Origin: Halosegnis rubeus
GTDB lineage: Archaea > Halobacteriota > Halobacteria > Halobacteriales > Haloarculaceae
NCBI RefSeq assembly: GCF_009184545.1
Contig: NZ_QJOW01000001.1
Coordinates: 372,001-436,000 of the forward strand
Direction: 5' to 3'
DNA length: 64,000 nt
This document shows, piece after piece, positions 7,843 to 47,466 of the stretch; position 1 is the first letter of the stretch; every line of letters starts with the position of its first letter. The translations under genes and the position numbers were made by a program. The notes under the pieces were generated by a model. It searched no databases and was not told where the DNA came from. It saw only the letters and a program-made list of their open reading frames with translations.

Positions 7843-9681
7843 TCAGTTCTCGCCGAAGAAGTCCGTCTCGACCGTCTGGTCCTGGCTGAACGAGTCGAGC
7901 CGGACGCGCTTCGACCCGAAGGCCGTCTCCACGGTGACGTACACGTCCGTCGTCAGGGTGGAGGTCTCGCCGTTCCGTACGTGGGTCGGCCACCACTCGG
8001 CCATCTTCGCGTTGTCCAACTCCATCGTCGGGTCGATGGTCGTCGTGCCGACCGTTCCGACGAGATACTCCTCTGGATTGCCGTTCTCGTCGCGCACCAC
8101 CTTCTCGTCTGCCAACACCACGTCGTTCAACCGGACGGTGTAGGTCACGTCCGTGATGGTAATCGGCTGTGACTGCTCGTTGCGAATCTCGGCTTCCGCC
8201 TGCAGGGGGGCGACGGCTTCCGTCGCCGTTCCCCACTGCGCGCTCGTCCGCTCGATGGTCGCGACGGTCTGGCCCTGCTGTTCGATGGTCCGCGGCTCGC
8301 TGCTCTCGAAGCTCGACAGCAGGTCCGTCCCGATCGTGCGCTCCTCTTCCGGTTCTGGCGCGTCGATTCGGGTCACGCCGATGTCTGCGGTCGTGTTCGC
8401 CCGCGTGACGACCGTCGACTGCTCGCCGCGGTTGAGATGGCGCGCCCACCACGCGGGCACGCTGTCGTGGCGGAATTCGCTCGTCATCGTGAACGTGTTG
8501 TTGCCCGGCTCCAGTCCGTCGAACGTCGCCTGTCCGCTGGCCGCGTCGATACCGTTGATGCTCGTCCGTTCGCCGACGTTCAGCGCGACGATATCCCCGA
8601 CTGCGCCGTCGTTCGGGTTCGAGACGAGGAGTTCGGTCTCGATGTCGGTCGTCGCGTCCGTCACGTCACCCCACTCGCTCGACCGGTCGACGAGTTCCGG
8701 CCGGTCGAAGCTCGTCTCCTCGCCCGCGCCCGGAATCGTCGACACCTCGGTGGTGCCGGCACCCAGCAGGTCGGTCTGGAGTCGAGCGTTGCGCTCGAAG
8801 ATGGTCAGCGGGACGCGCTCTAGTTCGCCGTCACGTTCGACGAGCCCGTAGACGCGGACCGAGAGGTCGGTCGTCTGGTTCGCGCGGATGTGGCTTTGCC
8901 ACCACTCGGCCATCTTCGGCGTGTCTATAGCCGGATTCGCCGTGAACGTCCCCGACTCGCCGGGAACGAGACTGAAGGAGTCTTCCGTCGTCCCCTCGCC
9001 GACGGTGACGCCGTTCATCTCGACGGTGTACGCCGTCCCGTCGAGTTGGATGGGGTAGTCGTGGATGTTCTCGATGTCCGTCTGGACCTGCAGCGGGGTC
9101 GACTCGGCGGTTGCTTCACCCCAACTCGCGCGCTGGTTCGAGACGCGAAGCAAGGTGTCGTTGCCGACGCCGACCTCACGCGACTCGTCGCTCGTCACCG
9201 ACGAGAGCAGGTCCGTCGTGAGCTGTTGTTCGGTCGCCGACAGCTCCACACTTTGTGGAATGGCCGGCAGCGAGACACGCGGCTCCGTCACCTGCGTCGT
9301 CGTCTCGCCGTTGTTGATGTGGGTGACCCACCACTCGGGAATCTTGTCGTTCCGGAGCGGCACGTTGACGGAGAGTGTACTCTCTCCCGTGGGTAAGCCC
9401 ACCCCGCCCTGCGAGCCTTCGGCGACGGTCACGTCGTTCATCCGGACGGTGAATCCCAGCGTCGCGGCTCCGGGAATCGACCGGTCGTTCGGGTTCTGTA
9501 TCGTAATGTCGTTGCGAATCGTCGTGGTCTCGTTCGTTACGTCACCGAACGAGGAGTCGACCGATTCGACGGTCGGGCTCTCGAAGTTCTGGGCGAACTG
9601 AAAGACGTACACTCCCAGCCCGGCCGCCACCACGAGCAGGGCGACGCCTCCCACGAGAAGCACTTTCCGGCGATTTACCAT
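7843..9681 (-). CDS. Four-repeat LEA14/WHy-like membrane-anchored protein
   Basis: A 612-residue protein with an N-terminal membrane anchor (about residues 7-28) and four tandem domains of about 140-150 residues facing the outside. Each has a strand rich in T and N (TTTIRNDITIQNPND), a TVRMNDVTVAEG-like strand and an [EA]WWxxH signature at residues 117, 260, 411 and 563. LEA14/WHy domains are linked to desiccation tolerance in plants and prokaryotes; a role in a halophile envelope is inference. A shorter paralogue with two repeats lies at 46354-47466. It diverges from the thioredoxin-like gene. Confidence 0.75.
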   Translation of the reverse strand: MVNRRKVLLVGGVALLVVAAGLGVYVFQFAQNFESPTVESVDSSFGDVTNETTTIRNDITIQNPNDRSIPGAATLGFTVRMNDVTVAEGSQGGVGLPTGESTLSVNVPLRNDKIPEWWVTHINNGETTTQVTEPRVSLPAIPQSVELSATEQQLTTDLLSSVTSDESREVGVGNDTLLRVSNQRASWGEATAESTPLQVQTDIENIHDYPIQLDGTAYTVEMNGVTVGEGTTEDSFSLVPGESGTFTANPAIDTPKMAEWWQSHIRANQTTDLSVRVYGLVERDGELERVPLTIFERNARLQTDLLGAGTTEVSTIPGAGEETSFDRPELVDRSSEWGDVTDATTDIETELLVSNPNDGAVGDIVALNVGERTSINGIDAASGQATFDGLEPGNNTFTMTSEFRHDSVPAWWARHLNRGEQSTVVTRANTTADIGVTRIDAPEPEEERTIGTDLLSSFESSEPRTIEQQGQTVATIERTSAQWGTATEAVAPLQAEAEIRNEQSQPITITDVTYTVRLNDVVLADEKVVRDENGNPEEYLVGTVGTTTIDPTMELDNAKMAEWWPTHVRNGETSTLTTDVYVTVETAFGSKRVRLDSFSQDQTVETDFFGEN

Positions 9682-46353: not shown

Positions 46354-47466
46354 ATGGACCCGAAGACGCTGCTTCTCGGGAGCAAGCTGAAGGTCGTGGT
46401 GACGGCCCTCGCGCTCGTGGCCGGAAGCGTCGGCGGCGCGTTCGCCCTCGGTGTCATCGGCGTGCCCAGCGTCGGCACCGTCGACAACAGCTTCGGTCCC
46501 GTCGACGACGAGACGACCGTCATCGACACCGACCTCGTCGTGGTGAACCCGAATCCAATCGGTCTCAGACTCGGCGACAGCCGCATCGACTACACCGTCC
46601 GGATGAACGACGTGCCGATGGCGAGCGGCAACAAATCCGGCCTCCAAATCGGGTCGGGCAACACGACCCTCGCCTTCTCGACTCGGATGGACAACAGCCA
46701 GATTCCGCCCTAGTGGGCGAGCCACGTCCGGAACAACGAGACGACCGTCGTCACCATCGACGCGAACGTCTCCGCCTCACTGTTGGGCCAGCGCTCGACA
46801 CAGATTACACAGGAGCGTGAGATTCAGACCGACCTCATCGGGCAGTTCAACTCCGACGAGACGCGGCCCGTCTCCGGACCTGCAAATCCCGTTATCGAGA
46901 ATCCCCTCCTCTACGTGAACGCTACCCGTGCCGAGTGGGGCACCGTTACGGACGCCGAGACGCCGATTGCCATGGAGTCCGACGCGTACAACCCACAGAT
47001 ACAGCCGTACACGATCACCAGCGTCGGCTACAACGTCACCATGAACGGGATTCCGGTCGGTGACGGCGTCACCGAGCGTCCGTACGTCATCGAGGGCGAG
47101 ACGACGGAGACCATCGCGACGACGCCGACAATCGACAACAGTCGCCTCGACGACTGGTGGGTGTCGCACCTCGAAAACGAGCAGGTGACCGACCTCCGCA
47201 TCGACTTCTACGCCCGCGTCGAACTCCCAACGGGGAACACGATTCGCGTCCCGCTCGATGAACTGACGTACGAACGCACGATAGAGACGGACATCTTCGG
47301 AACGAAAGAGTCCACGAACGAGACGACTACGGGCGAGGGAACACCGACGCCAACTCCGACGAACGGAGGCAATTCGACCCCAACGCCGACCGATTCGTCG
47401 GGTGACACCGACACGCCGACGCCGACCCCGACTGCCACATCGACCGACGACGGCGGACTGCTCTGA
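46354..47466 (+). pseudogene. LEA14/WHy-like protein gene with in-frame amber codon
   Basis: One frame of 371 codons is interrupted only by TAG at 46711-46713 (codon 120). Before it: an N-terminal membrane anchor and the first LEA14-like domain, ending QIPP. After it, in the same frame: WASHVRNNE and a second domain with DDWWVSHLENEQ, then a Thr/Pro-rich tail. The paralogue at 7843-9681 reads PEWWVTHINNGE at this place, so TAG stands exactly where TGG (Trp) is expected. One G-to-A change explains it. AGCGTTTTGTG about 27-35 bases upstream is a TATA candidate. It is either a fresh pseudogene, a read-through case or a sequencing error. Confidence 0.85.

Follow-up and report, generated by a model that had tools for sequence, protein, structure and literature searches.

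In the haloarchaeal genome G000 (2.66 Mb in 12 contigs, with an estimated contamination of 2.35 %), a LEA_2 gene with an internal stop codon is present on contig C6, at 46354-47466 on the forward strand of a 64,000-nucleotide stretch of this contig (the window). The frame begins with the ATG at 46354, runs for 119 codons to a single TAG (46711-46713) and then stays open in the same phase to the TGA at 47464-47466, as the initial annotation had described, with both halves in one frame and only the TAG between them. The upstream fragment (46354..46710, forward strand) contains an N-terminal membrane anchor (approximately residues 4-31) and strands one to five of the first LEA_2 domain, based on the sequence, the structural model of an intact relative (L006) and the LEA_2 match. 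The downstream remainder (46714..47466, forward strand), delimited by sequence, Pfam and coding signal, contains the end of LEA_2 domain 1, a second LEA_2 domain and a Thr/Pro-rich low-complexity tail; the motif DWWVSH, already reported for the second repeat, is seen there.

When the stop is read through, the protein matches Pfam LEA_2 twice (1.3e-16, 61.2 bits against a cut-off of 25.4) and, being above the gathering score, is a member of PF03168 (LEA_2/LEA14-like). The upstream fragment alone scores 25.6 bits and covers only positions 4-57 of the 98 in the profile. The gene at 46354-47466 encodes a membrane-anchored two-domain LEA_2 (LEA14/WHy-like) haloarchaeal protein, a stress-protein-like surface protein, the product of which would be 119 aa long if translation stops at the TAG. 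Based on the sequence and the homologue alignment, this TAG replaces the conserved TGG of Trp120, the first Trp of a conserved WW..H motif. An intact paralogue with LEA_2-type repeats, identified from sequence and Pfam, is present 37 kb away on the reverse strand (7843..9681); it is larger than the interrupted gene, and all four of the [EA]WWxxH motifs previously claimed for it at matching places were found (EWWVTH, EWWQSH, AWWARH, and EWWPTH).

In the AlphaFold model of L006 (pLDDT 80), an N-terminal membrane helix (4-31) is followed by two LEA_2 domains rich in beta structure and by a disordered tail, and Trp120 belongs to a helix (114-126) that is flanked by strands of domain 1. Compared with the solved archaeal structure 3BUT (AF_0446), this model has a TM-score of 0.91 by target length, placing the intact relative, the protein modelled here, in the LEA_2-type fold; the family profile likewise retrieves 3BUT at 5.7e-26. 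The truncated product would consist of the anchor and five strands, and judging from the model a complete domain is unlikely to form.

Homologues were taken from species-representative genomes by two routes, leaving 58 once duplicates were removed. Opposite the TAG, 57 of these 58 non-identical sequences have TGG, the sole exception being a distant bathyarchaeal copy with CTC, which agrees with the earlier reading that TAG stands exactly for TGG. Trp is present at the site in all 39 of the closer homologues, among which Trp120, Trp121, and His124 are practically invariant; in this alignment the stop site is among the most conserved positions of the protein. The gene is intact in the sister species (G001), which is of the same genus, has 90 % amino-acid identity and is syntenic with G000 over nearly the whole window, and the frame is open at the site in all five other genomes of the genus. 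Alignment of close relatives had been proposed as a check, and it places the stop in G000 only, within a frame that is intact in the orthologues, as in a nonsense pseudogene. Given TGG in the relatives and the intact gene in G001, the stop is private to G000 and, if the sequence is accepted as given, would have arisen after the split from G001. A gene split into two was not found in any relative, either in the homologue set or in the genomes of the genus. A matching gene is absent from 19 of 59 related genomes (about a third).

To date the stop, lineage changes were polarised with G004 as the outgroup over the stretch from the stop to the end of the second LEA_2 domain. Since the G001 split, the G000 lineage has gained 25 synonymous and six non-synonymous changes after the stop; under uniform neutrality, which would yield mostly non-synonymous changes, the probability of this is about 4e-11. 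The neutral share of the G000 branch is at most about 5-24 % under most of the settings tried. Codon use past the stop is still that of a working gene, as claimed initially: the mean codon log-odds is 0.375 after the stop and 0.414 before it, with negative values in the other frames, and GC3 is 0.84 versus 0.90. No clear relaxation of selection is seen after the stop. The only hint is F209S, where the 39 close homologues all have F, M or L; comparable single changes past the site are carried by 12 of the 40 sequences, one of them being G000. F209S may be the only further lesion besides the stop, and would be a weak sign of relaxation. On these comparisons the downstream part was under selection until very recently, and with 25 synonymous against six amino-acid changes the stop is therefore recent.

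The background of broken genes comes from stretches of contig C6 alone, of which 664 kb (C6:172001-836000; 518 genes) were compared with G001 C1:1577001-2241000. Many stops first seen in this comparison were rejected as over-extended starts or antisense frames, which were set aside using the codon position of differences and reading of the alignments. Only four G000 genes, including 46354-47466, have lesions in a plainly coding frame, so the interrupted gene is not routine noise. Compared with G001, a DUF3604-type gene (C6:207159-207914, reverse strand) has two Trp-to-TAG changes, at 207653 and, four codons short of the C-terminus, at 207170; it has also lost ~850 bp internally. A DUF7345/PGF-CTERM secreted protein gene (C6:655942-656640, reverse strand) has a Trp-to-TAG change (656091) at 79 % of its length; its sorting tail past the TAG is still well kept. 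An amino-acid permease gene (C6:353838-354968, forward strand) has a TGA early in its frame, deletions and a TAG towards its end, and is plainly decayed. Gene decay is thus under way in the lineage, affecting somewhat fewer than 1 % of genes.

In the plainly coding genes of contig C6 there are four Trp codons changed to TAG, and each sits in the tetramer CTAG. This tetramer is reported to be scarce in every haloarchaeal genome analysed and to be the likely target of an orphan methylase conserved in Halobacteria (PMC6471742); in G000 it is about twelvefold under-represented. That the coding Trp stops are TAG and none TGA is a small-number observation, and their shared CTAG is a small coincidence needing explanation. 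In the 664-kb comparison there are 91 private CTAG sites in G000 and 37 in G001. GATC shifts in the same way (532 in G000, 313 in G001). The GC content of the compared stretches is 65.0 % in G000 and 66.3 % in G001, and, in line with the CTAG gains, C-to-T and G-to-A differences outnumber the reverse in G000. These shifts possibly reflect AT-ward drift or a changed methylase or repair state.

It is likely that a nonsense mutation very recently struck a dispensable gene here, making it a young pseudogene or null allele. A single G-to-A transition, in a lineage drifting towards AT, would have changed TGG to TAG at Trp120. Translation would then end after 119 residues, with loss of the last helix and strands of LEA_2 domain 1, the whole of domain 2 and the tail, and the allele would probably be null. 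The comparisons establish the stop codon, its restriction to G000 and how selection has acted on the gene. Loss of the gene in this strain is plausibly tolerated, because a third of related genomes are without it and the larger paralogue is present 37 kb away. A recent change was one of three options rightly listed in the initial annotation and is favoured here; read-through, also listed, is not, and a base-call error, the remaining option, ranks next after a recent change and is considered less probable.

A base-call error would likewise leave a single damaging base, and a base-call, assembly or strain-mixture artefact, with TGG and an intact gene in the organism itself, would account for the remaining gene looking fully selected. 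The assembly, with its 12 contigs and estimated contamination, may be a draft or derive from a metagenome, and as all four of the Trp-to-TAG codons are in CTAG, a reported methylase target (PMC6471742), a modification-related miscall is conceivable. Against this, the 52 syntenic genes of the window contain no frameshift or other internal stop in the coding frame, and deletions accompany the stops in two of the three further broken genes. A miscall of CTGG as CTAG that is blind to frame would strike Trp and synonymous sites equally, but CTGG-to-CTAG differences occur at 25 of 1034 synonymous-frame sites and at three of 625 Trp-frame sites (Fisher P 0.0025). Such miscalling is disfavoured, since the gains respect codon position; real mutation under selection would be the better fit.

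Translation of the TAG, with a suppressor or near-cognate tRNA inserting Trp, for instance, would give the full-length protein and would fit the persistence of selection downstream of the stop, the position of the TAG where Trp is wanted and the other Trp-replacing stops in plainly coding genes of the contig also being TAG. A search for a tRNA with a CTA anticodon had been suggested, and none was found by the RF00005, Trp-like or T-arm pattern searches. The Rfam RF00005 model identifies 43 tRNAs in the genome, none with CTA; one of these, uncalled by ARAGORN, reads by eye as an intron-bearing tRNA-Gln (TTG). The sole tRNA-Trp gene (C11:103637-103815, forward strand) has the anticodon CCA and a 105-nt intron in the anticodon loop. 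This intron-bearing gene was missed by the RF00005 scan. No second Trp-like tRNA gene with CTA was found, intron-bearing forms included, and the candidates checked from a search for the CTA anticodon before a T-arm are not tRNAs; a sequence containing GACTCTA at C11:74640-74751 was rejected because it is the stretch just upstream of a protein gene. A suppressor tRNA, including an intron-bearing CTA copy of tRNA-Trp, is therefore rejected, as is pyrrolysine, with a best PylS score of 21.7 bits against a cut-off of 178.15. Genome-wide reassignment of TAG to Trp is likewise rejected, since TAG is an ordinary terminator, ending 13 of the 49 window genes checked (about a quarter). In the window, 164 of the 167 TGG codons of G001 are TGG in G000, and only the site at 46711 is TAG. 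No excess of TAG was seen among stops inside coding-like sequence, although this is a weak test, by an insensitive method that does not recover the TAG at 46711 itself. The stop is conserved in no relative, and a 2021 review restricts demonstrated archaeal stop-codon read-through to selenocysteine and pyrrolysine (PMC8211752). With no CTA tRNA or PylS, an ordinary terminator and a private stop, read-through is very unlikely. It is yet harder to credit that some ambers, chiefly old Trp sites in CTAG, are decoded by an unrecognised near-cognate or modified tRNA, with a few TGG-to-TAG genes staying functional. Read-through, if true, would matter much more than ordinary gene loss. The least probable of the explanations weighed is that reinitiation past the stop yields two separate functional proteins, one from each half. 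An in-frame TTG at 46783 opens a frame of 227 codons, but it lies inside LEA_2 domain 1, leaving the domain divided with only its end following, its product would have no membrane anchor and no relative has the gene split.

As a recent nonsense allele, the gene is a case of loss caught almost as it happens, and a marker of decay in the lineage; the stop allele would be useful for testing whether haloarchaea need LEA_2 proteins. Compared with known systems, the read-through protein resembles other archaeal LEA_2 proteins (PF03168; LEA14/WHy-like) in its two domains matched by HMM and, through the L006 model, in its match to 3BUT, whereas the G000 copy is interrupted at a near-invariant Trp and its relatives are intact. 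There is an in-frame TAG within the gene, as in pyrrolysine recoding, but G000 is without PylS or a CTA tRNA, the gene is no methylamine methyltransferase, and the site is Trp in relatives, with the TAG not conserved. With the single-stop nonsense pseudogenes of bacteria and archaea it shares one private stop in an otherwise selected frame, probable dispensability and the presence of decaying genes on the same contig; it differs from them in being very young, with hardly any further decay.
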